In this document: positions 1 to 11,137 of the stretch, one piece after another | Layout of the letters: the number at the start of each line of letters is the position of its first letter | Numbering within the stretch: position 1 is the first letter of the stretch | IMG/VR virus record: IMGVR_UViG_3300030382_003635 | Span: 1 to 34,147 of that record | Length of the DNA: 34,147 bases | Reading direction: 5' to 3' (one strand) | DNA from: a virus | Notes under the pieces: generated by a model | The model's database searches: none | Told to the model about the DNA's origin: nothing | What the model saw: the letters and a program-made list of their open reading frames with translations, nothing else | Position numbers and translations under genes: made by a program

Positions 1-100
1 CAGCAGCTACTAAAAAAGGAATACACCAGAGCAAGAAATACACTTATAGGGGACATAAAGGCCCAGTTGAGCTTGGCCAAGAACGACCCCGACCGAGTAA
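1..100. repeat. Terminal direct repeat, left copy (circular assembly overlap)
   Basis: Bases 3-100 are identical to 34050-34147. Base 1 also matches and base 2 differs (A against G). The repeat lies inside a coding sequence that reads through both copies, so it looks like an assembly overlap of a circular or circularly permuted molecule more than a physical terminal repeat. Confidence 0.9.
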
Positions 101-195
101 GAGATCTTAAAGTTGAACGTAGAGAGGGTCTTGCGTTCATGAAGGAGGCTTATGAAAGGGCTAGAGATAGTGACTTCTTTACTAGGCAACGGTAA
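1..195 (+). CDS. C-terminal end of the giant virion protein (continues from 29833-34147)
   Basis: The frame beginning at base 1 is open without a start codon and ends in TAA at 193-195. Bases 3-100 repeat the last 98 bases of the window, and the frame is the same, so this is the end of the long gene that starts at 29833. Joining 29833-34147 to 101-195 gives 4410 bp, or 1469 residues plus stop. The tail is lysine/arginine rich and ends in TRQR. Translation of the next gene begins 17 bp after this stop. This is one gene split by the contig ends and not a separate protein. Confidence 0.9.
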   Translation, partial: QQLLKKEYTRARNTLIGDIKAQLSLAKNDPDRVRDLKVERREGLAFMKEAYERARDSDFFTRQR

Positions 196-211
196 AACAA
201 AGGGGAACGGT

Positions 212-466
212 GTGAAGAAAAATGGCATGATGACCAACAAGGAAATACAGGAGCTTATGCAGAGCGAGGTAGGCCCTAATGGAAAGGTTCTGTTTCTTGC
301 GCTAGCATTTTCGGGTGGCGTTGATGTTAATCCCTACAGAGCGGGTGATGCCTATGGGCTTCACCCTTATGAAATCCACCAAGGACTGTCAGACTTAAAG
401 CATAGAAAGCTGGTGCTAAGAGGAGAAGTCCAAGACTGCCTGACGCTAGTGAGAAAGAAGAAATAA
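212..466 (+). CDS. Small winged-helix-like protein, first gene after the virion block
   Basis: This is an 84-residue protein of unknown function. The C-terminal two thirds (HPYEIHQGLSDLKHRKLV followed by LRGE) look like the recognition helix and wing of a winged helix-turn-helix, which suggests DNA binding. I chose the GTG at 212 because AGGGG stands 4-5 bases upstream. ATG codons at 227 and 230 are alternatives but have weaker Shine-Dalgarno sequences. The stop overlaps the start of the holin candidate (TAATG at 464-468), so the two are translationally coupled. Its place at the head of the lysis genes suggests a regulator of late or lysis functions, but that is inference. Confidence 0.6.
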   Translation: MKKNGMMTNKEIQELMQSEVGPNGKVLFLALAFSGGVDVNPYRAGDAYGLHPYEIHQGLSDLKHRKLVLRGEVQDCLTLVRKKK

Positions 467-657
467 TGGAAACCATATTGTTGTATACTGCCCTTGTGCT
501 TGGCGTATTTAATGCACTGCTACCACTCGCAAAAAAGATTGCGGCCAAGACAAAGAATACCACTGATGATAAAGCGGTAGAGATGCTTGAAAGTGCGCTG
601 TCAATCGCAAAGGCTTTGCAGAAAAAAAAAGTCTCTGACGACACCAAAAAAAACTAA
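466..657 (+). CDS. Holin candidate (single N-terminal membrane segment)
   Basis: This is a 63-residue protein with one strongly hydrophobic segment near the N-terminus (about residues 4-21). A lysine-rich amphipathic tail ending in KKKVSDDTKKN follows. Small size, one membrane span, a charged C-terminus and a position directly before the endolysin gene (8-bp gap) are typical of phage holins, which permeabilise the inner membrane to release or activate the endolysin. No family-specific motif is visible, so the call rests on topology and context. The start overlaps the upstream stop by one base. Confidence 0.6.
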   Translation: METILLYTALVLGVFNALLPLAKKIAAKTKNTTDDKAVEMLESALSIAKALQKKKVSDDTKKN

Positions 658-665
658 GTACAGCT

Positions 666-1100
666 ATGCCAAAACGTCAAGCCGAGCTGGAGAAACTGCG
701 GGATCCCTTTTACTCAGCAATAAAATGGATGATCTTCCTGATAGAAAAAGAAGGATTGCCTCTTACCGTCTTCGAGACTTACCGTGGGGCAGACCGACAA
801 AACTATTTAAAGGAAAAAGGGCTAAGTAATGCGGGGGCTTCACAGTCTCCGCATAACTATGGGCTGGCCGCTGATTTTATTTTGGATACAGACAAGTGCG
901 ACGTGCGTAAACGGGAGTGGCCCGAAGGATCAGGGGTCTTCTACCCTGACGCATGGGACTATGACTCCAAAGAGGGGAAACATGCCTTCATCAGACTCGG
1001 AGAGATAGCCAAGAGCTTGGGTCTCGTATGGGGAGGAGACTGGAAAAGCCTCAAGGACTACCCCCATGTTGAGATGCCTGAGTGGAGAAAGAATATCTAA
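666..1100 (+). CDS. Endolysin, M15-type (VanY/L-Ala-D-Glu peptidase-like) zinc endopeptidase
   Basis: This 144-residue protein would cleave the peptide stem of peptidoglycan at the end of infection. It carries the M15 zinc-site pattern SPHNYGLAADF (His63, Asp70). Near the C-terminus are WGGDW (122-126) and DYPHVE (131-136), which supply His134 and the usual acidic residue. The length fits a single catalytic domain without a cell-wall binding domain. There is no signal peptide, so release through the upstream holin candidate is expected. Its TAA stop overlaps the stop of the opposing gene (1097-1100), with no intergenic space. The fold call is firm. The exact bond cut is inferred from the family. 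Confidence 0.9.
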   Translation: MPKRQAELEKLRDPFYSAIKWMIFLIEKEGLPLTVFETYRGADRQNYLKEKGLSNAGASQSPHNYGLAADFILDTDKCDVRKREWPEGSGVFYPDAWDYDSKEGKHAFIRLGEIAKSLGLVWGGDWKSLKDYPHVEMPEWRKNI

Positions 1101-1309
1101 ATGAACTGGTCTGGGAGTCTCCAGTCTGCTGCGTTGTGTTCATGCTTCTCTGGGTCATAGTTAGCCAGCACCCTTTTAACATACCTAGCTCTCGTTCTAA
1201 GGCGCACAGCGATTGAGAGGGGGCCTAGCCCCTCCCGATACAGTTCGAGTATCTGCTCGTCACTTGGGACGCCTGTGTACCTATCTGGCTGGCGAAGGTT
1301 AATCCGCAT
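1097..1309 (-). CDS. Small helix-turn-helix protein, last gene of the early block
   Basis: This 70-residue protein has a probable helix-turn-helix. SDEQILELYREG is followed by LSIAVRLRTRARYVKRVL, which resembles the recognition helix of small phage regulators. The C-terminus is PDQFI. The ATG at 1309 lies within the end of the methyltransferase gene (11-bp overlap). A GTG at 1345 would add 12 residues, and neither start has a good Shine-Dalgarno. The gene is convergent with the endolysin gene and the stop codons overlap. A role in DNA binding is inferred from the motif only. Confidence 0.6.
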   Translation of the reverse strand: MRINLRQPDRYTGVPSDEQILELYREGLGPLSIAVRLRTRARYVKRVLANYDPEKHEHNAADWRLPDQFI

Positions 1310-1748
1310 TAAATATGTCGCCAAACATGCGTTCCGCTTTCCCACTCAGCTTTACTTTTTTTGCGTAGTGGCAAATGATAGAGGGGAATGGTGCGTTCAC
1401 TGGCTCCTTTGAACTGTTATCAAGGTCGATAAAGCGGATCCTTCCACTTACAAACTCAATATCCGCAAAGGGCTTTACGTTTTGGTGGAAGTATTTGGTG
1501 TCAACCCTTGCTGGCATCAGAAGAACCACCTCTCTGCCCTTCATGTACTCCTCTTTGCACTTCAGCGTCCATATTTTGAGCTGGGAAAAGGGAGGGTTGA
1601 CAAAGTTCTTGGCTCTCCACTCTATTTCAAGACCATCCCATGATGGTCTTGGGTGAGGGCATGGATCGAAGTAGTCGGGAAACCGAGCCAGTATGTCAGG
1701 GGGAGTTCCCCAGTTTATTGACCGAGCTTTTTGCATGTAGGCTGTCAT
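1299..1748 (-). CDS. Phage Dam-type DNA N6-adenine methyltransferase
   Basis: This 149-residue protein matches the compact phage N6-adenine methyltransferase family. NWGTPPDIL lies near the N-terminus, then DPCPHP and the catalytic NPPF motif in FVNPPFSQLKIW, then VVLLMPARVDTKYFH and a FVSGRIRFID strand. These enzymes transfer a methyl group from S-adenosylmethionine to adenine, often in GATC. I chose the ATG at 1748, which has GGAGA nine bases upstream and gives the usual family start. The frame is open further upstream, but that part overlaps the next gene and looks non-coding. The overlap with the upstream nuclease-like gene is 53 bp. Likely roles are protecting phage DNA or marking sites for transcription or packaging. 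Confidence 0.88.
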   Translation of the reverse strand: MTAYMQKARSINWGTPPDILARFPDYFDPCPHPRPSWDGLEIEWRAKNFVNPPFSQLKIWTLKCKEEYMKGREVVLLMPARVDTKYFHQNVKPFADIEFVSGRIRFIDLDNSSKEPVNAPFPSIICHYAKKVKLSGKAERMFGDIFNAD

Positions 1749-2211
1749 GAGGCAGTATCTCCAATGGCGAATATAGATCCGCAATGTGCATGTTGTGAGT
1801 TGTTGCTTTGGGTTGAAATCCGTTGCTGCCATCAGTACTTCTTCTGGTGATGATGGTAGAGTCTCGCCAATACATATCTGATGGGTAGTACCCAACAACA
1901 TGGCCCACCCCCATATCCTCCACAAGACTGACAAAGATATAGTAGTCACAAGACTGTCTTTGGTTTAGGTCTGGGACGGAGACAGAGTAGTCAAGACGTG
2001 GCAAGACATTCCTTCTCTTTGTTTTTACATCCCAAGTAGAGCCAAATAAAACCACGTCGTAATCAAATGTTGACGGGCCTTTGAACTCCCAGTTGGCGCT
2101 CTTACATACGAGTTCACCAAGGAGTCCGACATAGGTAAGCTCTCCGTTGGTGATGCTGTTTTTAAGATTATCCTTAAAGGTGTCTGCTTCTTGCTTTGCC
2201 TCATCAATCAT
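1696..2211 (-). CDS. PD-(D/E)XK nuclease-like protein next to the methyltransferase
   Basis: This 171-residue protein has no name I recognise. Residues 28-63 read like a restriction-endonuclease-fold active site: Glu33 in YVGLLGELV, Asp52 in FDYDVV, then a strand with Asp61-Val-Lys63 (STWDVKTKRR). Later it has SCDYYIFVSLV and HVVGYYP, typical core strands of such folds. The start overlaps the upstream stop (ATGA), and the 3' end overlaps the methyltransferase start by 53 bp. The pair could be a restriction-modification-like or methylation-sensitive nuclease set. It could equally be an unrelated DNA-processing nuclease. The nuclease call is inference from the motif. Confidence 0.6.
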   Translation of the reverse strand: MIDEAKQEADTFKDNLKNSITNGELTYVGLLGELVCKSANWEFKGPSTFDYDVVLFGSTWDVKTKRRNVLPRLDYSVSVPDLNQRQSCDYYIFVSLVEDMGVGHVVGYYPSDMYWRDSTIITRRSTDGSNGFQPKATTHNMHIADLYSPLEILPHDSLHAKSSVNKLGNSP

Positions 2212-2501
2212 ACCACTGGTGAGCTTGACTCTGATGAACTCTTTGGCTGACTCAACTTTTTTTTTAAGGGCATCCCGCCCTTGCTTGCGCTGACATAGAC
2301 TGGTTCACTCTTTCCGTTCTTCACTGGAAAGACGCGCACGTTCTTGGTGTTCATGGGGGGAGGTTCAGTCTTTGTCACCGCGATGACTTCGCTATCTTCA
2401 AAGACTTTTTTAATCATCTTCGTTATTTTCTTGGCAGTATCCCAATCCATACCAGACTCTTGAAGAAGCCTTAGTTCTCTTGGGTTAAGTTTGAAGGACA
2501 T
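2208..2501 (-). CDS. Hypothetical basic protein with disordered C-terminus
   Basis: This 97-residue protein is not recognised. The N-terminus (LNPRELRLLQESGMDWDTAKKITKMIKK) predicts one or two helices. The middle is a short strand-rich stretch (RVFPVKNGKSEPVYV), and the last 20 residues are Lys/Ser rich and probably disordered. It overlaps the upstream nuclease gene by 31 bp and the downstream nuclease-like gene by 4 bp (ATGA), so it is translated as part of the DNA-processing operon. A function in DNA binding or as a partner of the flanking nucleases is possible but unsupported. Confidence 0.65.
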   Translation of the reverse strand: MSFKLNPRELRLLQESGMDWDTAKKITKMIKKVFEDSEVIAVTKTEPPPMNTKNVRVFPVKNGKSEPVYVSASKGGMPLKKKLSQPKSSSESSSPVV

Positions 2502-2803
2502 AACAACTCCGCAAACGCTTCAAAGCGCATGGTTACATAGATAGGAGATCTATCTTCTTTTGAAACAACAATAGGTTCTTTGCCGCCACATGCCTCTGAT
2601 GCTTGGGTCATGGCCCTCTTAATGGCTACGCGCTTTCCCCTCTTACACTCTATCCAATAGTTCTCTACCCCCACAACATCGGGGGCATCTTCGCCATCGC
2701 GGTATTGAAGCCCTCTACGGGCTTCAAAACCTATCTGCTTAAACAGTGTGGCCACAAGTCTCTCGAAGTTATGGCCCTTTGTTCTACTTCTTTTCCCGCT
2801 CAC
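2471..2803 (-). CDS. Hjc/VRR-like PD-(D/E)XK nuclease, putative resolvase
   Basis: This 110-residue protein has the compact layout of phage Holliday-junction-resolvase-like or single-domain PD-(D/E)XK nucleases. It begins SRTKGHNFERLVATLFK (Glu14), followed by RRGLQYRDGEDAPDVVG (Asp42) and YWIECKRGKR (Glu52-x-Lys54). Ser/Arg-rich starts followed by FER and a later PDV...IECK are typical of this group. It may resolve branched recombination intermediates or trim replicated DNA before packaging. It overlaps the exonuclease gene upstream by 20 bp. The fold is fairly clear, and the precise substrate is not visible from sequence. Confidence 0.7.
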   Translation of the reverse strand: MSGKRSRTKGHNFERLVATLFKQIGFEARRGLQYRDGEDAPDVVGVENYWIECKRGKRVAIKRAMTQASEACGGKEPIVVSKEDRSPIYVTMRFEAFAELLCPSNLTQEN

Positions 2804-3443
2804 GAAGTTCCTCTAGCTCTTTCCAAAAGGCAACGCACTTCTCCAGCATTTCCTCATGCAAAAAAGGATCCGCCTCAAGGATATGAATATCTCTATCGGC
2901 AGTTCCCAAGTGGTGAACAGCTAAGTCCCATCGGTCTAAGCCGCTTAGCATCATATAGAACTGACACTGTAACACATACTCCTCTGGCATCTTTTGTTCA
3001 AGTCCGTCCCATTTCTTCTTCGAGAAAAAATGGGCAGTCTTGGCCTCGAACCCAAACTTAATACCCGTAACAATCAGACCATCTGCGTGGCTCTCCACGT
3101 TGTAACGCTTCTTGTTTCTTACTAGCCTGTCTGGACTTGCAGCCAAAAACTTATGTTCTGGATGAATAAAAACGTGTCCGGGCAGCAAGTCTTTTTTTGC
3201 TTCCTCAACAGGGTCAACCAGTACCTCTCCCGTTTGTGACTCGTACCAGTCTGCGACCACCTGTTCATACAGGTGTCCAGACTCCGTAAACTTGTTGCCA
3301 GTAAAAGGATCCCCACGCCCAAGTTTCTCTTCGATTAAAACTTCTCTGACCTTATAAGGGCTTTTACCTAATATGACCGCAACGTCTGTTCCTCCGATGC
3401 GATAGTTCCTATCCGCTGGTTTTACAAATAACATCTTCCCCAT
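2784..3443 (-). CDS. YqaJ/lambda-exonuclease-like 5'-3' recombination exonuclease
   Basis: This 219-residue protein has the YqaJ viral recombinase layout. IGGTDVAVILGKSPY lies at residues 16-30 and GHLYEQVVADWYE (Glu60) follows. SPDRLV contains catalytic Asp105, FEAKTA contains Glu133-x-Lys135, and an EYVLQCQFYMMLSG helix lies near residue 160. Such enzymes resect double-stranded ends to give 3' overhangs for a single-strand annealing protein. Here the Rad52-like protein at 5511-6122 would be the partner. The ATG directly follows the TAA of the upstream miniprotein gene. Length and motifs are complete. Confidence 0.88.
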   Translation of the reverse strand: MGKMLFVKPADRNYRIGGTDVAVILGKSPYKVREVLIEEKLGRGDPFTGNKFTESGHLYEQVVADWYESQTGEVLVDPVEEAKKDLLPGHVFIHPEHKFLAASPDRLVRNKKRYNVESHADGLIVTGIKFGFEAKTAHFFSKKKWDGLEQKMPEEYVLQCQFYMMLSGLDRWDLAVHHLGTADRDIHILEADPFLHEEMLEKCVAFWKELEELREREKK

Positions 3444-3617
3444 TTAACACTCTCCTATACCAAAGAGGAAGCCAATCACGGCGGCTACCCATTTGATGGC
3501 AGTCATCCCCCCCTCTATTCTAAGGAGAAGGATTTCGTTTTCTTTTTGTTTTTCGAGTAGGAGCTGGATCGTTTCTTCAATGACCTCTATCCTCTCGCTT
3601 AGTTCCTTGACACTCAA
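3444..3617 (-). CDS. Coiled-coil miniprotein with C-terminal membrane segment (TTG start)
   Basis: This is a 57-residue gene filling what otherwise looks like a gap between the ATPase and exonuclease genes. It would start at TTG (3617), overlapping the ATPase stop as TTGA, with GGAGGA five bases upstream. It ends with TAA immediately before the exonuclease ATG. Residues 4-35 form a charged heptad-like helix (SVKELSERIEVIEETIQLLL and onward). Residues 38-54 are hydrophobic (TAIKWVAAVIGFLFGIG). The layout resembles small tail-anchored coiled-coil phage proteins such as XhlA-like products, and it parallels the protein at 17568-17768. Function is unknown. Confidence 0.65.
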   Translation of the reverse strand: MSVKELSERIEVIEETIQLLLEKQKENEILLLRIEGGMTAIKWVAAVIGFLFGIGEC

Positions 3618-4525
3618 ATAAGTCCTCCGGTCTGCCAGTGTGCCTTTTCTGCCCTGCCATCTTCTCCATCATATATACGGAGGGATGCGCTAAAAGGCTT
3701 GGCCTCGCGGCCAGCTTTCACTCTGACAAACACGTTATTCTTAAACACATCAGGCTCATCACCCAAGGTGTCCACGTTCATCATCGTTATAAGTCCGTCT
3801 ACAGCACCATAAATAGCACCGGAACCCCTCACTGAGTATCCGGGGTTTGCCTTGTCCGAAGACGTAGGCTTTCTGGTATGGTGAACCACTAACACGCTTG
3901 CGCCTGTTACGTCCCTAATATGTCTAAGGTTTTCCATCACCTTCATCACCTGAGCAGAGTCATTCTCGTCTGAGGAGTGCAGGTTTCTGAATGGGTCAAA
4001 GGTTATCAACCCCAAGTCTGGAATGTTTTCAGCTATATCCGCTGCAAGTTGGTGAGCCTTGCTGGTATCCGCAATATCTATGCCACCTCCGAACCTGAAA
4101 TACATATCCAATGCCCCAACATCTCGGATCCCTTTTGATGCGGCCAGTGCTTTAACACGGGAATAAACGCTGTGTTCGCTGTCCTCCAGCATGAAGCAGA
4201 GAACGGAACTCCTATGTGTAGCACCCTGCAAAAGTGGGTCATCACACATGTTTGTTCCTGTGCATACACTCAGCGCCATCTCTAATGCCAGCCAAGACTT
4301 AGCAGTCTTGGGTGCGCCAGCCATCATGACTACGTTCTTGCTCTCCACCATGCCCCTGACCAACCACTTGATAGGTGGGGGAGGCACCGCAAAGAAGTGG
4401 CTCGCTGCTTTTATTTTAAGGGAAGCAAACCCGTTCTTAGTTCTCTTGTTTATTTTTGCTACCTCATTATCACTTTGGTGGATGGCCTCTAACGTACCAA
4501 CTTCTTGCGATCTCCAATCCATCAT
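3614..4525 (-). CDS. RepA/AAA_25-type ATPase, putative replicative helicase
   Basis: This 303-residue protein resembles the RecA-fold ATPases of the RSF1010 RepA/AAA_25 group. Residues 69-78 hold a P-loop variant AGAPKTAKSW, in which the usual Gly before Lys-Ser is Ala. SVLCFMLED, the Walker B strand LGLITFDPFRN (Asp177), ASVLVVHHTRKP (His215-His216) and SVRGSGAIYGAVDGLI follow in the expected order. Such proteins act as hexameric helicases or helicase loaders. It is the only replication motor visible here, so other replication proteins probably come from the host. The start overlaps the sigma-like gene by 56 bp. Confidence 0.8.
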   Translation of the reverse strand: MMDWRSQEVGTLEAIHQSDNEVAKINKRTKNGFASLKIKAASHFFAVPPPPIKWLVRGMVESKNVVMMAGAPKTAKSWLALEMALSVCTGTNMCDDPLLQGATHRSSVLCFMLEDSEHSVYSRVKALAASKGIRDVGALDMYFRFGGGIDIADTSKAHQLAADIAENIPDLGLITFDPFRNLHSSDENDSAQVMKVMENLRHIRDVTGASVLVVHHTRKPTSSDKANPGYSVRGSGAIYGAVDGLITMMNVDTLGDEPDVFKNNVFVRVKAGREAKPFSASLRIYDGEDGRAEKAHWQTGGLI

Positions 4526-5243
4526 ACTCCAACACTTCCCCTAGAATAACTCTAGCTTTACGAAGCCGCCAGTTTACAACCTGTCGGCTCAAGTTAAGTT
4601 CATCTGCTATTTGTTTCTCAGTTAGAGATCTCCCGTAGTAAAGACGAAAGACCACCCAGAACTTTGGCTTTAAAACATTTGATGCACGTTCCAAAACCTT
4701 TTTAAATAAAACGATAGCCTCGCTCCTGTTAGAAGACTTATCCTCTATGCCCTCATTTTCTCTCCCATCTTTAGATAGAAGCTCATGAGTATTTTTCTTG
4801 TAGAGCTTTTGTCTTCTGATGTAGGCATCACTTCTGATGCACCACATGGCAAAGCGAAAGAACGGAAACTGTTTTCCGTTCTTGTCTAGTCTTGGCTTGA
4901 ACAACCTTGCCGCTCTATACAAACTGAGAACGGCGTTCTGAAATATATCATTAGGATCCTCAAGGCCAAACCCCCTGCACTTTCCAACATACCATTTGGC
5001 TAAGTGCAGGTGGGTTTCAATGAGCTGAGTCATGGCGGCAGCGTCACCGCGCTGCGCCTTGAGTACTAGCTCTCGTGTCTCGTCGTCATCAGGATACTTA
5101 GAACGGGACTTCTTCTTCGGGGCGACCGAAGATGTCGGTTGCTCCGCCTGAGCTGGAGGGTTTCTCTCCGCTGTTGGCTCGGCTCTTTGCTCCGAAGTCA
5201 AACGTGCTGACTTCAAGAATAGGTCTAGATCTTTTGACCCCAT
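4470..5243 (-). CDS. Sigma-70-like transcription factor overlapping ssb
   Basis: This protein is about 257 residues with two sigma-like domains. Region 2 (about 57-145) contains RELVLKAQRGDAAAMTQLI, then a helix with NDIFQNAVLSLYRAARLFKP and FPFFRFAMWCIRSDAYIRR. Region 4 (about 195-235) is a helix-turn-helix, LTEKQIADELNLSRQVVNWR. A long linker lies between them. The N-terminal 50 residues are disordered and Pro/Gln/Lys rich. The frame is open upstream to 5381 and has no start codon between 5098 and the core domain. Translation must therefore start inside ssb, most likely at ATG 5243 with GGGAG close upstream. It may direct host RNA polymerase to the repeated phage promoters in this block. 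Confidence 0.75.
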   Translation of the reverse strand: MGSKDLDLFLKSARLTSEQRAEPTAERNPPAQAEQPTSSVAPKKKSRSKYPDDDETRELVLKAQRGDAAAMTQLIETHLHLAKWYVGKCRGFGLEDPNDIFQNAVLSLYRAARLFKPRLDKNGKQFPFFRFAMWCIRSDAYIRRQKLYKKNTHELLSKDGRENEGIEDKSSNRSEAIVLFKKVLERASNVLKPKFWVVFRLYYGRSLTEKQIADELNLSRQVVNWRLRKARVILGEVLEYDGLEIARSWYVRGHPPK

Positions 5244-5511
5244 CCTTCTCCCATTTTTCGATGATGACATCTCCGGTGACAAAGATTTGGTCTCCCTTTT
5301 TAACATACCGCCCCACTGTCTCAGCGGTCTGGCCCCAGAATGTGAGATCCCAAAAATCTGTTTCACGGTTCTTGCTTCCATCGGTCTTCTTGGCTCCCCT
5401 GCCTTGACGTTCTACTGCTATTGACGCATTAACGACAGCTCGCTCTGCCTTGCCTACAAACTTTAACTCAGGATCTTTTGTAAGTCTTCCTGACAATGTG
5501 CATTTGTTCAT
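5098..5511 (-). CDS. ssb: Single-stranded DNA-binding protein
   Basis: This 137-residue protein has an OB-fold N-terminal domain typical of bacterial and phage SSB. It begins MNKCTLSGRLTKDPELK, then VNASIAVER, FWDLTFWGQTAETVGRYVKKGD and FVTGDVIIEKW. A short Ser/Gly linker leads to the acidic tail EEEVPF, equivalent to the DDDIPF tip that recruits partner proteins. It coats ssDNA during replication and recombination. Its start overlaps the Rad52-like gene (TAATG). Its 3' third (the linker and tail) is also read in another frame by the sigma-like gene. Confidence 0.93.
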   Translation of the reverse strand: MNKCTLSGRLTKDPELKFVGKAERAVVNASIAVERQGRGAKKTDGSKNRETDFWDLTFWGQTAETVGRYVKKGDQIFVTGDVIIEKWEKDGVKRSRPILEVSTFDFGAKSRANSGEKPSSSGGATDIFGRPEEEVPF

Positions 5512-6122
5512 TAGTCTATCTCCTTTTGTTTTGCTTTGGCTAGTTTTCTAGCTTCTGCCTGTACTTCTGGTGGACACTTAGGGATCTCAGTCTTGTACTT
5601 GCTCATCACCTTGCGCCACCCGTCGCTGTCGTCAACCCCTGCAAGATCTCTCTTTAAGGATTTGATAATATCATCAGCAACTTCTGGCTTTACTTTCGCG
5701 TGGCTATCTGTGCCGCCTTGATGGATTGGATTAGCTTTATCATACAAGCTGTTACCAAACGCTGCACCAAACCCACGAAAGGCTCTCTTCATTCCATCTG
5801 TCACAGCCTCTTTGACTGCCAACTCCCGTCCCTGTTTCACTGATGAGGATCCATATCCAACATCTTCTTTAATGATCACAGTCCCATCAACCCTAACAGT
5901 TATCCTGACCTGTGACACTACCTCATGGCCCTTGCCTCCCTCGAAGAACTGAACGTCCTTGACCTCTAGACCCCAGTTGTCATGACCGAAGATGCTGTTG
6001 GCCTGAGCAATGGCGAACCATCCCTCAACATAGGAGACTTCAAAGCTGCCCTGCTTGCGTTTTGATACTGCGTTCTTAGGTAAGCCCTCGTTAAGCCTCT
6101 CGATTATTCTCTTTTTTTGCAT
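5511..6122 (-). CDS. Rad52/22-family single-strand annealing protein
   Basis: This 203-residue protein has the conserved Rad52/22 core. It runs GWFAIAQANSIFGHDNWG (34-51), VRITVRVDGTVIIKEDVGYG, and AVKEAVTDGMKRAFRGFGAA with GNSLYD after it. These proteins anneal complementary single strands and work with an exonuclease, here the YqaJ-like protein at 2784-3443. The C-terminal 65 residues are charged and probably flexible. A strong AGAGGTGG Shine-Dalgarno lies before the ATG. Between it and the upstream HTH gene is an 90-bp spacer with hairpins and a TATATA stretch, so this gene may begin a new transcription unit for recombination and replication. Confidence 0.88.
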   Translation of the reverse strand: MQKKRIIERLNEGLPKNAVSKRKQGSFEVSYVEGWFAIAQANSIFGHDNWGLEVKDVQFFEGGKGHEVVSQVRITVRVDGTVIIKEDVGYGSSSVKQGRELAVKEAVTDGMKRAFRGFGAAFGNSLYDKANPIHQGGTDSHAKVKPEVADDIIKSLKRDLAGVDDSDGWRKVMSKYKTEIPKCPPEVQAEARKLAKAKQKEID

Positions 6123-6125
6123 TTT

Positions 6126-6212
6126 ATACCACCTCTTGATATATAGAGAGTAGCATTTATGCTACCTCTGGCTCCGACCCCGCGCTCCCCTGTGGGGGAG
6201 GGGCCATTTTTA
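6126..6212 (-). promoter_or_regulatory. Spacer upstream of the Rad52-like gene with hairpins
   Basis: This 87-bp spacer contains GTAGCA/TGCTAC hairpin arms (around 6150-6165) and a GC-rich CTCCCC/GGGGAG hairpin (around 6185-6200). An AT-rich TATATA lies before the AGAGGTGG Shine-Dalgarno. The GC hairpin on the plus strand is followed by ATTTTTATT and may stop antisense transcription. The AT-rich part may be the promoter for the recombination unit. Confidence 0.4.
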
Positions 6213-6425
6213 TTACAGCCCATGTGTCTTCTGAGCTTTCTTTACTTCTTTAAGTGGCAGCAAGATCTGACACGTTGGGCCACGCCCAAGTTTGATACTG
6301 TTAAACTGTATCTTCCCTTCGGCTATCCACTTGTCCACTGTTCGTCTTGTCACCCCTATGATTTCGGCTGCACCCTCCATCGAGATCAGCCCGTAGTCAA
6401 TCAACTGCTTGTCATTATTGTTCAT
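6213..6425 (-). CDS. MerR/excisionase-like helix-turn-helix protein
   Basis: This 70-residue protein with a helix-turn-helix, SMEGAAEIIGVTRRTVDKWI (15-34), is followed by a short strand ending in ILLPLKEVKKAQKT. The layout is that of excisionase-type small DNA-binding domains. The start lies one base after the stop of the upstream GroES-like gene, with AAGGGGA as the Shine-Dalgarno. It sits just before the recombination/replication unit and may be its regulator. No integrase is present, so a true excisionase role is unlikely. Confidence 0.75.
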   Translation of the reverse strand: MNNNDKQLIDYGLISMEGAAEIIGVTRRTVDKWIAEGKIQFNSIKLGRGPTCQILLPLKEVKKAQKTHGL

Positions 6426-6426
6426 A

Positions 6427-6738
6427 TCATTTCCCCTTCGGCCACCATGCGTACACGTCTTGCTCTTCTATGAAACAGAACTCCCCGCTGTCGTCCACGG
6501 CATCCATCGTATTAGCCAGCACAAGACACCGTGTCCCTACTGGTAGTTTTACTTTCTCTCCAGTCTTTACCACCTCATGCACCCTTGCATTTCTGTGGTC
6601 ATAGACCCCTTCATTGAGACTGATTAAGGATCCTAAGTCCTTCGGAGTCAACGCTCTGACGACGAGCATTTCGTCCTTTATATTCATAACCTCAAAATCT
6701 TTTACTGTTAGCTTGTCTAGGTATGGGTTTATTCCCAT
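6427..6738 (-). CDS. GroES-like co-chaperonin candidate
   Basis: This 103-residue protein's pattern resembles GroES/gp31-type co-chaperonins. A strand LVVRALTP follows the N-terminus, then a loop, ARVHEVVKTGEKVKLPVGTR, a LVLA strand, and a closing FIEEQDVYAW that matches the usual ending of this fold (a strand followed by D-h-x-A). Phage co-chaperonins modify host GroEL for capsid folding. Similarity is at the level of pattern only and the mobile loop cannot be confirmed, so an unrelated small beta-barrel is possible. It has a strong GGAGG Shine-Dalgarno and overlaps the upstream gene by 10 bp. Confidence 0.5.
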   Translation of the reverse strand: MGINPYLDKLTVKDFEVMNIKDEMLVVRALTPKDLGSLISLNEGVYDHRNARVHEVVKTGEKVKLPVGTRCLVLANTMDAVDDSGEFCFIEEQDVYAWWPKGK

Positions 6739-6941
6739 GCTACCACCTCCGTTGTTGTCCAGTTATCTTCTATTGTTTTAGTGTTCCACGTCTGTAGATT
6801 GCGGTCAAGTACCCTGCGCCTTCCATTCACTGAAACCTTTATTGTTCGCAGCTTAACCCCTGTCCCTTCAAGTATTTCTAGAAGGAACAGGGTGTCGCCA
6901 TCGGCACAAGGGTATGCCCACTTGACCCTAGTTTGACTCAT
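6729..6941 (-). CDS. Hypothetical small protein
   Basis: This 70-residue protein is not recognised. It is beta-rich by appearance (DTLFLLEILEGTGVKLRTI followed by KVSVNGRRRVLDRNL). It overlaps the upstream gene by 14 bp and the downstream gene by 10 bp, so it is translationally coupled in an operon of small unknown proteins. The ATG at 6941 has only a weak Shine-Dalgarno, consistent with coupling. Confidence 0.6.
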   Translation of the reverse strand: MSQTRVKWAYPCADGDTLFLLEILEGTGVKLRTIKVSVNGRRRVLDRNLQTWNTKTIEDNWTTTEVVAWE

Positions 6942-7251
6942 CGGCTTCGGTCGTCTTGACCAAGCCCATCACCTCATGCAGTTGCATCTCATGCTCCATG
7001 CGCTTCATTGCGTAGAAGCAAGCGGTCCTCATCTTGACCATCATAAGATGGGAGAGAGAACGCTGCTCCTTCTTGCGAAGCTCGCTCGGCAACAGCTCGA
7101 TGATCCCTAGCATGTTCTCAAAAACAGAGATTAGTTTCAGCGTATCATGTGGGCCAAAGCCTTCGATGATAGTATCAAGCGCATCTGCTAGTTTCTTTTC
7201 CTGCTCAGGTGTTGGGTAGTTATCTATGCTCTGTTGTTTAACTTTCCCCAT
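6928..7251 (-). CDS. Hypothetical helical protein
   Basis: This 107-residue protein is predicted mainly helical (PTPEQEKKLADALDTIIEGF, then DTLKLISVFENMLGIIELLP, later MMVKMRTACFYAMKRMEHEM). It is not recognised. AAAGGAG stands seven bases before the ATG at 7251, and the start lies inside the end of the upstream gene (14-bp overlap). Confidence 0.65.
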   Translation of the reverse strand: MGKVKQQSIDNYPTPEQEKKLADALDTIIEGFGPHDTLKLISVFENMLGIIELLPSELRKKEQRSLSHLMMVKMRTACFYAMKRMEHEMQLHEVMGLVKTTEADESN

Positions 7252-7693
7252 GTGACGGCTCCTTTGCTAACGCATGAATAGACCAGAATGTTGCCGAGAC
7301 AATACATTCCGCTGGTTGCATAGAAGGATCCCACCACTCTTTAGGTGAAGGGGCCTCAGCCTGTGTGCCATAGGCAGTAAACACAATGCTGTCCTCAAGA
7401 GACTTGCCCTTGATCCCAATGACTACAACCTTTCGACACGCCCTGTGTGGTGCCAAGACAAGACGGCTAAACCCTGCTCGGCCATTGCGCTTCTCATAAA
7501 TGACTTCGCTCTCCACCACTGGAGCATCCCCACAAGAGGGGCCATACAGTGCAGACAACAAGTCCGGCAACTGTTCGGGCAACTCCCTGATGTCAATGAA
7601 GAAACCTTCATCTTGACTGGTTACTATTTCTGTCACGAAATCAACATGCTCATCAGTCAATCCGTGGTCGTCGTGTGCAATTTTTACTTGCAT
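7238..7693 (-). CDS. Hypothetical protein preceded by hairpins
   Basis: This 151-residue protein is of unknown function. I chose the ATG at 7693 over one 21 bases upstream because AAAGGGGA lies six bases before it. The protein has an acidic N-terminal part (KIAHDDHGLTDEHVDFV) and a later strand-rich section (CRKVVVIGIKGKSLEDSIVF). A small hairpin (7708-7720) abuts the Shine-Dalgarno and a large 14-bp hairpin lies further upstream (7743-7775). This arrangement recurs ahead of other genes in the block. Confidence 0.6.
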   Translation of the reverse strand: MQVKIAHDDHGLTDEHVDFVTEIVTSQDEGFFIDIRELPEQLPDLLSALYGPSCGDAPVVESEVIYEKRNGRAGFSRLVLAPHRACRKVVVIGIKGKSLEDSIVFTAYGTQAEAPSPKEWWDPSMQPAECIVSATFWSIHALAKEPSHGES

Positions 7694-7707
7694 TATTATT
7701 CCCCTTT

Positions 7708-7720
7708 GACGCACTGCGTC
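7708..7720 (-). promoter_or_regulatory. Hairpin abutting the Shine-Dalgarno of the 7238-7693 gene
   Basis: GACGC and GCGTC form a 5-bp stem around a 3-base loop. In the minus-strand transcript AAAGGGGA follows directly. It has the same placement as the hairpin at 10305-10324. Confidence 0.5.
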
Positions 7721-7742
7721 TTTGTTTTTGTTGTTAAAGATT

Positions 7743-7775
7743 GTATCTCTCTCTCTTTAAGAGAGAGAGAGATAC
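7743..7775 (-). repeat. Perfect 14-bp inverted repeat of CT/GA repeats
   Basis: Arms 7743-7756 and 7762-7775 are exact reverse complements (GTATCTCTCTCTCT) around a five-base loop. It lies in the 127-bp spacer 7694-7820 between two minus-strand genes and has no U-tract. It could be an operator, an RNA processing hairpin or a transcript-stabilising element. Confidence 0.75.
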
Positions 7776-7820
7776 ACAAGAGAGCTTCTGTCCATTTTGT
7801 AAGAACTCCACTCTCAAAAA

Positions 7821-8165
7821 CTAAAATGGTAAATCGTCTTGAATAAAATCATCGTCATACGGTGACGCTCGGAATGCACCCTTCACCACCGTGCCACACT
7901 TACTCACGTCGCTGATAGCAATCTGAGTTAGGATCCCAAAGGTATCCTCGAACAGCGCCAGCGCCTTGTTGGGTGTAGGTCTAAACCCTAGCCAGCATCC
8001 CCACCACCCACATTGTAGCGTGGTTAGGTATGGCCAGATGCAGAAGTCCAGCTCAACCTCGAACACTTCTGCGCTGATGGTAAAGATGATAGGCTTACCG
8101 TAGTCATCATCCCCGTGGTTTTTTTCGTACTCATCTGTCTTAACGGAAACTGTTTTAAGTTTCAT
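7821..8165 (-). CDS. Hypothetical protein with an SSB-like C-terminal tip
   Basis: This 114-residue protein is unknown. The C-terminus, YDDDFIQDDLPF, looks like the acidic tip of SSB proteins (compare EEEVPF of the phage SSB here), with acidic residues before a final hydrophobic-Pro-Phe. The central part holds aromatic and Cys-rich segments (FCIWPYLTTLQCGWWGCWLG). AGGAGGG precedes the ATG, and a 12-bp hairpin (8185-8212) stands immediately upstream. The tip could compete for or recruit SSB-binding host proteins such as RecQ, RecO or Exo I. That is a hypothesis. Confidence 0.65.
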   Translation of the reverse strand: MKLKTVSVKTDEYEKNHGDDDYGKPIIFTISAEVFEVELDFCIWPYLTTLQCGWWGCWLGFRPTPNKALALFEDTFGILTQIAISDVSKCGTVVKGAFRASPYDDDFIQDDLPF

Positions 8166-8184
8166 TTTGCTACCCTCCTGACCG

Positions 8185-8212
8185 CATCACCTACTTCTTT
8201 AAGTAGGTGATG
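8185..8212 (-). promoter_or_regulatory. 12-bp perfect hairpin upstream of the 7821-8165 gene
   Basis: CATCACCTACTT (8185-8196) and AAGTAGGTGATG (8201-8212) are exact complements with a four-base loop. The hairpin ends 19 bases before the ATG, close to the Shine-Dalgarno. It lies between two co-directional minus-strand genes and has no U-tract, so it is more likely an RNA structure acting on the downstream gene than a terminator. Confidence 0.65.
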
Positions 8213-8240
8213 AAGTGTTGCTGCTACTTCCCTGATTAGT

Positions 8241-8636
8241 TTAAGCATCCTCATCCCCATCGGGCATCGCATCAATGAGTCGTTGAGCTTCTGCTATCTG
8301 CTCTTGGCTTGGATACCCTGCTCTTGTGATGGCCGCTACATCCTTATAGCCCTGCTCGGTTGCCTCTTGACATTCTCTAGCCTGTTGCTCACGAACCATC
8401 TCGGCTCGCTCGTCCAGCTCCTTGTCGAACTTGACGATCTCATCCGATAGCCATTGAATGTGCTTGATTAGTTCCTGCCCACTAGCCACCATCTTGTCAT
8501 CATGAGCAGGGAAGCGATCTTTAATCATGTCCTCCTGCTCATAGACGGCAGCACCTACTCGGTTGCGCCACCCCTTCAAGAACAATGTGCTTTCCTCACA
8601 GAATGTTTTCAATCTCTCAATCTTATTTGCTTTCAT
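8241..8636 (-). CDS. Hypothetical coiled-coil protein
   Basis: This 131-residue protein is highly charged and helical, with a long predicted coiled coil (about residues 55-95, from LIKHIQWLSDEIVKFDKELD through the Gln/Glu-rich stretch). The tail DAMPDGDEDA is acidic. Function is unknown. It has a strong AAAGGGGAG Shine-Dalgarno and promoter-like element A upstream (8663-8691), so it probably heads its own transcript. Confidence 0.65.
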   Translation of the reverse strand: MKANKIERLKTFCEESTLFLKGWRNRVGAAVYEQEDMIKDRFPAHDDKMVASGQELIKHIQWLSDEIVKFDKELDERAEMVREQQARECQEATEQGYKDVAAITRAGYPSQEQIAEAQRLIDAMPDGDEDA

Positions 8637-8700
8637 GTTGTCTCCCCTTTGTTGTTGTCTATAGTATCGGAACTCTAGTCCATTAGTTGCTAGAGATCCA
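8633..8700. repeat. Direct repeat of about 65 bp, copy 1 (partner 8937-9000)
   Basis: The segment from the start codon of one gene through its Shine-Dalgarno, -10-like and -35-like boxes is nearly identical to 8937-9000. The two copies differ mainly by a three-base insertion and by the spacer between boxes. It is a recent duplication of a promoter/leader unit. Confidence 0.75.
8663..8691 (-). promoter_or_regulatory. Promoter-like element A
   Basis: In minus-strand reading, AGCAAC (8686-8691) stands 17 bp before GATACT (8663-8668), and the gene start at 8636 follows about 27 bp later. GGATC lies a few bases upstream. The element overlaps the stop codon of the upstream gene at 8683. It is one of six copies. 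Confidence 0.7.
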
Positions 8701-8940
8701 GTCTCTTGTTTCTTTTCTTTTGTTTATCTCTGAAATCTTGTGGTCGCATTTGCGCCACACTTCTTCTTCGGGCATCCCGAAGATCTCGGCTATGCTTATC
8801 TCTCTCACTGACAGTACAGTGCTGCGTGGGCTACAGCTTTTGATGTGCTTCAATGCTGTATCAATGCTTGCGCCATGATGTACCTCAATGTAGGTGTTAT
8901 TGTTTGTCGCCTCGAATGTTATTAGGTACCACTTCTTCAT
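8683..8940 (-). CDS. Hypothetical small protein
   Basis: This 85-residue protein is unknown. ATG 8940 is preferred over an in-frame ATG 42 bases upstream because AAAGGGGAG lies six bases before it. The sequence (KKWYLITFEATNNNTYIEV, later SVREISIAEIFGMPEEEVW) suggests a compact alpha/beta fold. It is a single-gene unit between promoter elements B and A. Its last codons (ISSN, stop) overlap element A. Confidence 0.65.
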   Translation of the reverse strand: MKKWYLITFEATNNNTYIEVHHGASIDTALKHIKSCSPRSTVLSVREISIAEIFGMPEEEVWRKCDHKISEINKRKETRDWISSN

Positions 8941-9000
8941 GTTGTCTCCCCTTTGTTGTCTATAGTATCGGAGTTCTAGCATTTATGTTGCTAGAGATCC
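8937..9000. repeat. Direct repeat of about 65 bp, copy 2 (partner 8633-8700)
   Basis: Nearly identical to 8633-8700, including the Shine-Dalgarno, GATACT, AGCAAC and GGATCT parts. Confidence 0.75.
8964..8992 (-). promoter_or_regulatory. Promoter-like element B
   Basis: AGCAAC (8987-8992) stands 17 bp before GATACT (8964-8969) on the minus strand, ahead of the gene starting at 8940. GGATC lies directly upstream. It overlaps the last codons of the micropeptide gene at 8991-9074. Confidence 0.7.
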
Positions 9001-9074
9001 ACTAATAAAATGTTAAGCAGTAGGATTATTCCTAAGACTGCTACCATCACCACAAAATCTAGTAATGTTTTCAT
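8991..9074 (-). CDS. 27-residue transmembrane micropeptide
   Basis: A very short frame starts at ATG 9074, overlapping the TGA of the upstream gene (ATGA), and ends in TAG at 8991-8993. The product is almost entirely hydrophobic (MKTLLDFVVMVAVLGIILLL then NILLVDL), a single membrane span. Start-stop coupling and the otherwise empty 70-bp interval support it as a real gene. It could be an inner-membrane effector or a holin/antiholin-like peptide. Function is unknown. Confidence 0.55.
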   Translation of the reverse strand: MKTLLDFVVMVAVLGIILLLNILLVDL

Positions 9075-9523
9075 AACTTCTCATTGGCCATAGCTTGCGT
9101 AAGGTTTGCAACCATCCTTCGGCTTAGTTCTAGGGTGTCACGCAACTCGGCAATCTTTTTATTCAGTGCCACCACTTCCTCCTCCGCTGTTTGTGTGGCA
9201 TAGCCACGGCTGAAAGTTTTTATAACTTCATCCTTCTTACACTTGAAAAATATATGCTCACCCTTGGCAGACAGGTAAGCATTGGCGAGGTCAAGCAGTG
9301 TTACCTTAGATGCTTTCTCTAGGTTGTCCCCGTCCAAGCTACCTAGGTGGTTACTAATATGAAACGCTGCCGCCCATAAAAGGTTGTCCCCTCCCGCATA
9401 CTTTCTAGTGAACAGCCCTAAGCTGTTCTCTAGTGTGTCTATAAAATCCTCTCGTCGCTTGCGATCTCTGCTGCTCTGTTGAAGTTCCTCACCCAATGCC
9501 CTGCTCTTGTTTGCTTTGCTCAT
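9071..9523 (-). CDS. Hypothetical helical protein with C-terminal coiled coil
   Basis: This 150-residue protein is not recognised. It has a charged N-terminus (ELQQSSRDRKRREDFIDTLE), a mid part with AAAFHISNHLGSLDGDNLEK, and a coiled coil near the end (EEEVVALNKKIAELRDTLEL). GAGGGGAG lies before the ATG at 9523, one base after the stop of the upstream gene. The micropeptide gene overlaps its stop codon. Confidence 0.65.
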   Translation of the reverse strand: MSKANKSRALGEELQQSSRDRKRREDFIDTLENSLGLFTRKYAGGDNLLWAAAFHISNHLGSLDGDNLEKASKVTLLDLANAYLSAKGEHIFFKCKKDEVIKTFSRGYATQTAEEEVVALNKKIAELRDTLELSRRMVANLTQAMANEKL

Positions 9524-9524
9524 G

Positions 9525-9749
9525 TTATCTCCCCTCGTATGATTTGATTATTTGGTTAGCTGTCATCCAGTTTTCAAACTGATATAGGTTCTCTACCTCA
9601 ATGTACACTTCGCTTTCTGGTGCAAGACGGATACCGTTCTGCCTTCCAACCTTGCCCACCTTGAATAGCCCTGTTTTCTTTAATCGTTTTCTTATTTCTG
9701 TTACGTCACACTTTTTAATCTGAAAAGTTTTTGTATCTTTTATAGTCAT
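9525..9749 (-). CDS. Hypothetical small basic protein
   Basis: This 74-residue protein is unknown. It has a basic N-terminal half (KKCDVTEIRKRLKKTGLFKV) and an acidic end (FENWMTANQIIKSYEGR). It is the first gene behind promoter-like element C and has AAGGGGAG before the ATG. Confidence 0.65.
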   Translation of the reverse strand: MTIKDTKTFQIKKCDVTEIRKRLKKTGLFKVGKVGRQNGIRLAPESEVYIEVENLYQFENWMTANQIIKSYEGR

Positions 9750-9772
9750 GTTAATCTCCCCTTGTTAAATAG

Positions 9773-9801
9773 AGTATCGGCAACTCTAGAGTTTAGTTGC
9801 T
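9773..9801 (-). promoter_or_regulatory. Promoter-like element C
   Basis: AGCAAC (9796-9801) lies 17 bp before GATACT (9773-9778) on the minus strand, upstream of the 9749 start. GGATCC (9806-9811) sits just upstream of AGCAAC. Confidence 0.7.
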
Positions 9802-9837
9802 AGTTGGATCCGTTTAAAAGTTTTTATTTTTTCTCCG

Positions 9838-10290
9838 TTAGTCCTCCCCCCATACCCTAACTTGTACAGTAGTTCGACGCCCCGCCAATCCGTTGCATGT
9901 CTCACACTTGCTCCAACTAAACTCATCGTGCGTCATGTTTCCATCCTCATCGTAAAGGATGTAGTGATCTTGCCAATAGTCCACAGCACAAGTATCTCCC
10001 TCATCATTGCACTGCCTTTGCACCTGTGGTCCACCGCTGTGTAGCTCAAACCTTTTCTCAAAGGTGTCGTCATCAGGAGGTACTTCGCCATTGGCGATGT
10101 ACAACACGCAGTCATCACAGCATTGCACGTTTTCAAACTCCCAGTTTTTAGTGTAGTCTATCGGCTCGCCAAGATGCTTGTCATCCACGGGGTAAGGCTT
10201 ATCATCTTCGAGCCTATCTTCGACTTGTTGGTGGAACTGATCATCGTCCTTGACTCCATTAAGTAGGCACCATGCTTCTTTGGTATTCAT
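9838..10290 (-). CDS. Hypothetical Cys-rich, possibly zinc-binding protein
   Basis: This 150-residue acidic protein has paired cysteines, QCCDDC in the middle and KCETCNG near the end, which suggest a metal site. It also has many Asp and Trp residues. AAAGGGAG stands before the ATG at 10290. The hairpin at 10305-10324 lies between it and the upstream gene, so it is the second gene of a promoter-gene-hairpin-gene unit. No known family is recognised. Confidence 0.65.
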   Translation of the reverse strand: MNTKEAWCLLNGVKDDDQFHQQVEDRLEDDKPYPVDDKHLGEPIDYTKNWEFENVQCCDDCVLYIANGEVPPDDDTFEKRFELHSGGPQVQRQCNDEGDTCAVDYWQDHYILYDEDGNMTHDEFSWSKCETCNGLAGRRTTVQVRVWGED

Positions 10291-10304
10291 GTTAGTCTCC
10301 CTTT

Positions 10305-10324
10305 GCCCACCTTAAAAGGTGGGC
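10305..10324 (-). promoter_or_regulatory. Intercistronic hairpin 1 (GCCCACC/GGTGGGC)
   Basis: GCCCACC (10305-10311) pairs with GGTGGGC (10318-10324). The flank ATCAATG on the transcript is shared with the hairpins at 11165 and 11772. AAAGGGAG, the Shine-Dalgarno of the next gene, follows directly. There is no U-tract. Confidence 0.65.
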
Positions 10325-10335
10325 ATTGATTGTTG

Positions 10336-10770
10336 TTATAGATTTGACTGACTGATAAAGATCTTTTTATTCATGCCCGCATCACTTATCGGGGCAAACC
10401 CCGTACCTATGCAAGCTACTCGACGGCCCAGCTCTTCTAGGCTTTTAAAGGTTAGACCCTTGGACTCGAAGCAGTAATCCAGACCGCACGAAGCAAGCGC
10501 CCGTGTTATGACGGCCTCTCTTTTACTGTACCCATACCCCGTAGTGCTAGCGCTACCCGATAGGGTGCCGCTGTCAGTATATACCCACAACACGCAAGCT
10601 AGTTGTCCACTTGCCGAATAGGTTGATACTCTAATCGTGGCCACGCAGTTTGGATCGGATCCTATCATCTCATATATGTCATAGCTTAAACTCATGCCCC
10701 TGTTCTCTAGCGCTTTTCTGTGGCGCGGATTAATATTGCTTTCGTTAAATGGTAACTTTTTAATGGTCAT
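10336..10770 (-). CDS. Hypothetical protein
   Basis: This 144-residue protein is not recognised. It is beta-rich with a Ser/Thr/Gly segment (DSGTLSGSASTTGYGYSK) and a following helix KREAVITRALASCGLDYC. Repeated Cys/Gly features suggest a compact domain. It is the first gene after promoter-like element D, with AAGGGGATATAAA before the ATG. Confidence 0.65.
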   Translation of the reverse strand: MTIKKLPFNESNINPRHRKALENRGMSLSYDIYEMIGSDPNCVATIRVSTYSASGQLACVLWVYTDSGTLSGSASTTGYGYSKREAVITRALASCGLDYCFESKGLTFKSLEELGRRVACIGTGFAPISDAGMNKKIFISQSNL

Positions 10771-10800
10771 TTTATATCCCCTTGTTTGTTTGCTAATACT

Positions 10801-10829
10801 GTTATCGTCTCAGTTCTAGAATAGTTGCT
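10801..10829 (-). promoter_or_regulatory. Promoter-like element D
   Basis: AGCAAC (10824-10829) lies 17 bp before GATAAC (10801-10806) on the minus strand, ahead of the gene starting at 10770. GGATCC (10844-10849) lies upstream, inside the end of the previous gene. Confidence 0.68.
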
Positions 10830-10831
10830 AA

Positions 10832-11137
10832 CTATCTTTCGGTGGATCCGTTTTCTATTAGCTGCCACCCATGATCCTTAAACCTAAACTTAAATATGGT
10901 GGCAACACTGCTGATCATTAAGGCGATCTGATCTACCGTGTAGGCGTCAAGTGTACCCTTCCAATACTCGCCACTGGTAGCTGTACCTTTGTTGTGATAT
11001 ATACATCGCACTAATATCTCATCGGCTATTAGTTTGTTCCGCTCGTTATTAGTCAGGTCTTCCCGTGGATAACATGTTGGATCGTGGATGACCTCTTGGT
11101 GTACATCTATAATAAAATCTATGGCTTGCTCTATCAT
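10832..11137 (-). CDS. Hypothetical protein
   Basis: This 101-residue, mostly helical protein (IEQAIDFIIDVHQEVIHD, later LTNNERNKLIADEILVRC) has a C-terminal part FKFRFKDHGWQLIENG. It is unknown. AAGGGAG precedes the ATG, and the hairpin 11165-11188 separates it from the previous gene. Confidence 0.65.
   Translation of the reverse strand: MIEQAIDFIIDVHQEVIHDPTCYPREDLTNNERNKLIADEILVRCIYHNKGTATSGEYWKGTLDAYTVDQIALMISSVATIFKFRFKDHGWQLIENGSTER

Follow-up and report, generated by a model that had tools for sequence, protein, structure and literature searches.

Phages such as T4 and T7 encode solo nucleases directed against host DNA, and EcoRII, PspGI, and ScrFI are restriction enzymes of the CCWGG or CCNGG type. 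The BisI family, which includes NhoI and Eco15I, consists of small single-domain nucleases that depend on 5-methylcytosine (5mC) and recognize GCNGC. As described in PMC11347163, BisI enzymes carry a Glu residue in the core helix and an Asp residue where the second strand begins, followed by a (D/E)XK motif; the motif of NhoI and Eco15I is Q-V/I-K, and PvuII is called the closest canonical relative of the family. Site avoidance by phages is described as an anti-restriction strategy (PMC6286503, in part). Here, we describe a gene in IMG/VR virus record IMGVR_UViG_3300030382_003635 (34,147 bases; this whole stretch is hereafter the window) that encodes a 171-residue PD-(D/E)XK nuclease-like protein and overlaps a gene for a Dam-type DNA adenine methyltransferase. 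The core gene of this protein family has so far always been accompanied by total absence of CCWGG, and the absence also occurs without the gene. The nuclease probably reads CCWGG, a specificity taken from the absence of this word, for which the host could also be responsible. Among the papers listed in searches of the open-licence literature, judged by title and start of abstract, there was no account of this nuclease family or of a phage enzyme offset by the total lack of its site.

Active site and predicted fold of the nuclease family

A tblastn search against 50,697 phage records identified two relatives of the window protein, in MW202701 (36%) and Ruegeria phage RpAliso (gp107, 34%); a third, distant one lies in MW202481 (26% to the MW202701 protein). 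One scan of IMG/VR with a three-sequence alignment returned at least 553 relatives among at least 599 stretches. A single scan by peptide patterns of genomes from bacteria and archaea, with a three-sequence alignment, gave no relatives among 31 stretches, none of the window protein was found in plasmids, and searches of viral contigs with P0002 alone and with P0004 alone gave no match. The BFVD entry A0A516LZ42 was 100% identical to the window protein over 171 residues; UniProt-derived data thus include this phage or one very close to it.

An earlier note, made from the letters of the window, had proposed the active-site pattern Glu33, Asp52, and Asp61-x-Lys63. These residues were present in the window protein and were conserved beyond what chance would give: among 61 distinct family sequences from 84 loci, E33 was kept in 60 (Gln in the remaining one) and D52, D61, and K63 were each kept in all 61. 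Q86, C88, D89, Y91, and F93 were likewise kept in 60 or 61 members. We counted this layout in support of a restriction-type nuclease because it is that of the BisI enzymes (PMC11347163, in part).

The structure prediction that had been suggested for the 171-residue protein yielded a nuclease core with a PD-(D/E)XK fold. We modeled the window protein (54 sequences; pLDDT 76, pTM 0.74) and the homolog from L080 (5 sequences; pLDDT 83, pTM 0.82) with AlphaFold; in the window model, a helix spans residues 24–38 and strands span 53–55 and 58–66. The Foldseek lists of both models were headed by NhoI and Eco15I (best E 1.4e-3 for the window and 2.2e-5 for L080; TM 0.29–0.48), as were the VIA lists (Z 9.1, 4.4 Å over 122 residues for the window; Z 10.3, 3.9 Å over 121 residues for L080; range of the top matches, Z 8.6–10.3), although with this tool best Z-scores of 7–8 are common without true kinship. 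Lower matches, with Z-scores for the window and L080 models, respectively, were I-Ssp6803I (8.0 and 6.9), DpnI (7.8 and 7.6), Hjc (7.4 and 7.2), and PvuII (6.0 and 6.4), and SPARDA nuclease subunits also followed NhoI and Eco15I. Of the top four BFVD matches, the first was the identical protein and two were phage-protein models named "Restriction endonuclease" (28% and 25% identity). Conserved residues, model elements, and fold matches together place the family, at the level of predicted structure, in the PD-(D/E)XK superfamily. The nuclease reading of the earlier note is thus supported, restriction endonucleases heading the matches of both models and the active site being conserved.

Profile searches gave the family no established name. 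The window protein had no Pfam match at E ≤ 1 and none in NCBIfam or PADLOC at E ≤ 0.01, and its sole PHROGs match was phrog_32947 (function not assigned, E 0.1). DUF6998 (PF22522), a label without a function, matched 37 of 54 members weakly (best 4e-5), two further members scored 13.8 and 17.8 bits against a cut-off of 27, and the window protein did not match. The PADLOC models of type II methyl-directed enzymes (mREase_II) matched three of 54 members for PDLC03208 (best 1.5e-5) and two of 54 for PDLC03212, and the PADLOC type II restriction enzyme model matched three of 54 (best 0.0061). Across the family, NCBIfam gave only two single-member matches, both to unrelated enzymes.

The predicted fold of both models suggests kinship with the BisI family, whose PDB entries were the best structural matches, whereas homology to that family was not found in sequence, none of its PDB chains being matched. 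In both families the helix Glu comes first, then the "PD" Asp and the (D/E)XK motif, and both consist of small single-domain nucleases. They differ in the motif (Q-V/I-K in the BisI family, DVK here), in the word (a five-base-pair pseudo-palindrome with a free center for BisI enzymes, against a two-fold degenerate center in the word proposed here), and in their setting, BisI-family enzymes being found in bacterial genomes and the window family in phages amid replication genes. GCNGC was over-represented in carriers of the family (1272 against 912 expected), and cleavage of unmodified GCNGC by these proteins is therefore unlikely. PvuII appears in the fold lists but belongs to a different sequence family. 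The catalytic domain of DpnI shares the PD-(D/E)XK restriction fold, whereas the whole enzyme also contains a winged-helix sensor and cleaves G6mATC. With EcoRII, PspGI, and ScrFI, the family shares the proposed word; none of the three is among the listed fold matches, and EcoRII and PspGI are not among the best 50 listed per model.

CCWGG is absent from carriers of the core nuclease gene

In a first scan of palindromic words, CCNGG was the most avoided in the carriers and in the window. CCNGG itself was rejected as the word, as the pooled signal split by its center into absent CCWGG and normal CCSGG. GATC and GANTC were rejected as well, with only partial depletion in carriers (0.74 and 0.79, respectively). 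The first carrier set, comprising 84 loci including the window, MW202701, RpAliso, and MW202481, contained no CCWGG against 934 expected, with CCSGG present. RpAliso has a GC content of 62%, and CCWGG was absent from each of its three pieces (140, 145, and 147 expected), ranking first of 265–275 words.

The rule held in carriers fetched after it had been seen: 71 new loci had no CCWGG against 648 expected, and the 34 independent ones (sharing less than 10% of 25-mers with earlier loci or with each other) had none against 370, with CCSGG at 189 against 126. The pooled non-redundant core carriers, 84 loci totaling 922 kb that all gave a profile hit, contained no CCWGG against 1218 expected, and zero counts were found in all 75 informative loci (CCWGG expectation ≥ 4) over a GC range of 0.32–0.62. 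With repeats included, the word was absent from 164 carrier loci. CCWGG was the sole always-absent word among 270 that were testable in at least 15 carriers; the next most absent word, at zero in 28 of 36 carriers, itself contains CCWGG, and GRGCYC (25 of 34) followed. CCSGG was not avoided (641 against 529 expected).

Codon-preserving shuffles within genes gave a mean of 41 CCWGG sites for the coding DNA of the window and 155 for 40 kb of RpAliso coding DNA, against none observed. Seven loci were treated in this way, and the observed count was zero in each; two of them have shuffled means below 6.

The window also lacks other words: AATT (3 of 71 expected), GAWTC (5 of 46), GWGCWC (0 of 30), and GRGCYC (1 of 38) were strongly missing. 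These may mark host enzymes or other phage enzymes.

Cause of the missing word

We lean, by a little, towards the view that the window protein is a phage PD-(D/E)XK endonuclease of BisI/PvuII/DpnI-type fold that reads CCWGG, has no cognate methylase, and leaves the phage itself unharmed because the phage has no site. Compared with arbitrary phages, the carriers stand apart. Random non-carriers (80 loci on contigs retrieved via an arbitrary 14-mer) had 552 CCWGG against 758 expected, and zero counts occurred in 14 of 82 informative loci of the enlarged random sample, against 75 of 75 in the carriers (Fisher 9e-31; p ≤ 0.004 in each of four GC bins).

Several results weigh against this view. We had expected that non-carriers matched by their DNA polymerase A gene (polA) would keep CCWGG, and this failed: polA-matched and roseophage relatives were mostly without it. 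The polA-matched non-carriers had 15 CCWGG against 1043 expected, with zero in 69 of 73 loci and in 34 of 38 non-redundant informative ones; the difference from the carriers was Fisher 0.011 overall and 0.085 to 1 within GC bins; 35 of these records, searched whole with the family profile, gave no hit. Five close relatives of RpAliso without the nuclease gene (no tblastn hit in the records and no profile hit in the 50-kb pieces) had no CCWGG in those pieces, and in the first 50 kb of HMO-2011 and CRP-3, which were not among the matches listed in the family tblastn searches, there were 0 of 76 and 1 of 113 expected sites, respectively. Most non-carriers of the same lineages thus lack the sites too, and there is therefore no within-lineage contrast; that with random contigs may reflect shared hosts. 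Moreover, the carriers are not independent, as shared proteins place 80 of 84 in one single-linkage group and four, including the window, stand alone. A distant clade, the relatives of the L185 protein, does not avoid CCWGG. The fold similarity is moderate (TM 0.29–0.48), best Z-scores of 7–8 being common for models without a clear match, and searches of PDB sequences at E ≤ 10 found no solved nuclease, phmmer returning one unrelated chain (E 1.8) and the profile search none.

The same non-carriers are what would be expected if the protein were a PD-(D/E)XK nuclease serving some other purpose and CCWGG had been lost because hosts of these phages (roseobacters and others) commonly restrict it or because another phage gene does, which we regard as possible without holding it probable. 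Roseobacter phage CRP-2 (L310), whose polA is HMO-2011-like, encodes an annotated Dcm methylase at 2541–3278 and keeps 32 of 63 expected CCWGG sites in 50 kb, as would be expected under outside attack on this word. A common outside cause sits less well with the carriers, which show no exception over their whole GC range, whereas exceptions occur among non-carriers (4 of 38 polA-matched and 68 of 82 random loci). Nor do all phages avoid the word: the pelagiphage HTVC033P (50 kb) has 54 of 58 expected sites, and Caulobacter phage CcrSwift has 153 against 111 in a piece of 25 kb.

Candidates for another phage gene were sought as well. The five close relatives of RpAliso, the roseophages RcXuper, DSS3_MAL1, MD18, DSS3P8, and V10 (L302–L306), carry a PvuII-like nuclease gene that adjoins polA or lies one small gene off, with no gene annotated as a methylase beside it; the annotation is present in V10, DSS3_MAL1, and RcXuper, and the members in DSS3P8 and MD18 are unnamed but of the same family. 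Like the window family, these solo enzymes are phage-borne and sit in the replication module without an adjoining annotated methylase gene; L046 has both kinds of nuclease, RpAliso only the window family. As another CCWGG cutter in podophage non-carriers, the PvuII-like enzyme was rejected, its profile hitting only the five roseophages and L046 among the loci searched. When V10 and RpAliso proteins were used in search of a protein common to CCWGG-free phages of both lineages, the only matches in more than two loci were ribonucleotide reductase subunits and a cell-wall hydrolase, joined in the case of RpAliso by the nuclease family; many proteins matched L046 only.

Three further observations concern words in these phages. 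CAGCTG was absent from all five roseophage 50-kb pieces (14.6–22.2 expected in each), yet also from RpAliso, which has no PvuII-like gene. In the first 50 kb of HMO-2011 (L309), GATC was absent as well (0 of 156 expected). CCWGG occurred in just four of the 73 polA-matched non-carriers (L105, L146, L148, and L157; 15 sites), and these had no CCSGG, as if the avoided center had been swapped.

Possible activities of the nuclease

Two other activities were weighed against cutting of unmodified CCWGG. The protein might resemble BisI or DpnI in cutting methylated DNA only, such as host C5mCWGG of the Dcm type, and the phage would lack the sites to avoid being marked by host methylation. We entertained this version because the nearest folds (NhoI, Eco15I, and DpnI, all modification-dependent; PMC11347163, in part) and the best PADLOC match, that of the methyl-directed model to three members, point to it, and the absence of sites is equally expected from it. 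It seems unlikely to us, given that 51 of 54 members did not match the methyl-directed model at E ≤ 0.01 and that the motif is DVK in place of the Q-V/I-K of NhoI and Eco15I (PMC11347163, in part). A structure-specific nuclease of recombination or replication, of the Holliday-junction resolvase type, would suit a gene placed among replication genes and the presence of Hjc in both fold lists. Hjc ranked below NhoI and Eco15I for both models, though; 21 of 83 carrier loci have a T7-type endonuclease I within 4.5 kb, the window has a resolvase-like gene of its own, and such an activity offers no reason for the absence of CCWGG. We consider it quite improbable.

If the nuclease does cut CCWGG, it would be produced together with the replication genes and would most likely cut host DNA during infection, and perhaps also the DNA of competing phages. 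Cutting of host DNA would feed the nucleotide pool, and the phage would be immune to its own nuclease for want of CCWGG sites, with no methylase needed. A bolder and rather doubtful extension is a family of solo phage restriction enzymes within the replication module, which would destroy host and rival DNA by cutting CCWGG without a methylase, the sites having been purged from genomes of up to 149 kb. Rivals sharing the hosts would be forced to lose CCWGG, which would explain CCWGG-free phages without the gene, and related clades would read other words, such as CTNAG in MW202481. In that phage (L181), CTNAG was found at 0 of 155 expected sites in 41 kb and CCNGG at 0 of 40; a change of word between clades would fit these data and those from the L185 relatives, with one lineage each.

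If true, the CCWGG reading would supply a widespread but unnamed family of phage proteins with both a function and a target word. It would mean self-protection by full removal of the target site from the genome instead of by methylation, would add a cause besides host restriction for word avoidance in phages, and would imply that the specificity of phage nucleases can generally be read from words that their own genomes lack.

The overlapping methylase is probably an independent gene

The reading frames of the nuclease and the methylase and their 53-bp overlap are as the earlier note had described them (Table 1). The methylase frame is open from a GTG at 1949; we take the ATG at 1748 as the likely start because alignments with the listed phage relatives begin at residue 5 or 8 in the resulting 149-residue form. 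Its identification as a Dam-type enzyme was confirmed by a score above the curated cut-off of Pfam PF05869 (E 1.4e-11; 44.8 bits against 28.1) and by phrog_111 (9.7e-21), and relatives occur in 446 phage records at E ≤ 1e-5.

The further proposal that the two genes form a minimal restriction-modification pair, with the methylase protecting the phage from the overlapping nuclease, draws on their overlap in the window and on MW202481, where a gene annotated "methyltransferase" lies one gene from the distant nuclease homolog. It did not survive tests in both directions, relatives of each gene being found without the other, an outcome that the earlier note had named as refuting it. PF05869 was detected in none of 80 virus records carrying the nuclease family (the first carrier set; many records are fragments, and the search covered this methylase family), whereas the same profile detected the window methylase in its own record (43.3 bits). 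Conversely, the nuclease family was detected in none of the 10 records with the closest methylases, whereas its profile did detect L082. A cognate methylase of the PF05869 family, as expected of a type II restriction-modification system, was thus not found with the nuclease in these records. GATC is unremarkable in the window (132 against 160 expected), and in RpAliso a DNA methyltransferase gene lies about 64 kb from the nuclease gene. A pair of this kind is hardly credible, and the shared unit was rejected; the methylase appears to be an independent orphan of a common phage type and its pairing with the nuclease local. The methylation-guided part of the idea that the nuclease spares phage DNA falls with it, while the sparing itself may hold in another way, through the lack of CCWGG sites in the phage.

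Gene neighborhood

Within the window, the nuclease gene lies in a run with genes for a resolvase-like protein, a YqaJ exonuclease, a replication ATPase, and a sigma factor.

Table 1. Positions of the nuclease gene, its active-site codons, the overlapping methylase gene, and neighboring features in the window
Position	Strand	Feature	Evidence
1..34147	.	Whole window: CCAGG and CCTGG absent (0; 79 expected), CCSGG 6	Word counts and codon-shuffle control
1299..1748	-	Dam-type DNA adenine methyltransferase, 149 aa	PF05869, phrog_111, phage relatives
1696..1748	-	Overlap of the nuclease and methylase reading frames, 53 bp	ORF coordinates
1696..2211	-	PD-(D/E)XK nuclease-like protein, 171 aa, family without a named model	ORF, family residues, predicted fold
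2023..2031	-	Asp61-Val62-Lys63 codons, (D/E)XK motif	Sequence; D61 and K63 in 61/61 members; model strand 58–66
2056..2058	-	Asp52 codon, "PD" aspartate	Sequence; 61/61 members; directly precedes model strand 53–55
2113..2115	-	Glu33 codon, helix glutamate of the nuclease core	Sequence; 60/61 members; model helix 24–38
2208..2501	-	ORF of 97 aa, directly upstream in the nuclease gene run; overlaps the nuclease start by 4 bp	ORF list
2471..2803	-	Second small nuclease-like ORF	phrog_244 "RusA-like Holliday junction resolvase" 1.2e-17; Mrr_cat 22.3 bits, marginally above cut-off 21; PDDEXK_15 below cut-off
2784..3443	-	YqaJ-type recombination exonuclease	PF09588 1.3e-24; phrog_434 4e-42
3614..4525	-	Replication ATPase, helicase/primase-like	phrog_906 3e-26
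aa, amino acids; ORF, open reading frame.

The family as a whole is set among genes of replication and DNA metabolism. Neighbors within 4.5 kb of the nuclease gene were counted in 83 carrier loci, a set that leaves out the window and contains repeats, and each family was named from one scanned representative. DNA polymerase A was the commonest neighbor, present in 41 loci and within 60 bp in 37, followed by a Toprim/DnaB helicase-primase (33) and a class II ribonucleotide reductase (26). A PDDEXK_1-like protein, marginally below its cut-off, was found in 24 loci and the T7-type endonuclease I mentioned above in 21.

In the non-carriers L098–L139, other nuclease-like genes, such as HNH/endonuclease VII-like ones, are often found between helicase and polA. 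Alternatively, this position encodes a protein of 140–155 residues with the pattern PDRYAQDL...VECEVK, which, judged by eye from this motif, resembles another PD-(D/E)XK family. On the plus strand of the window, positions 666–1100 hold an open reading frame that appears, from its motif, to resemble peptidase M15/VanY and that possibly encodes the lysis enzyme.
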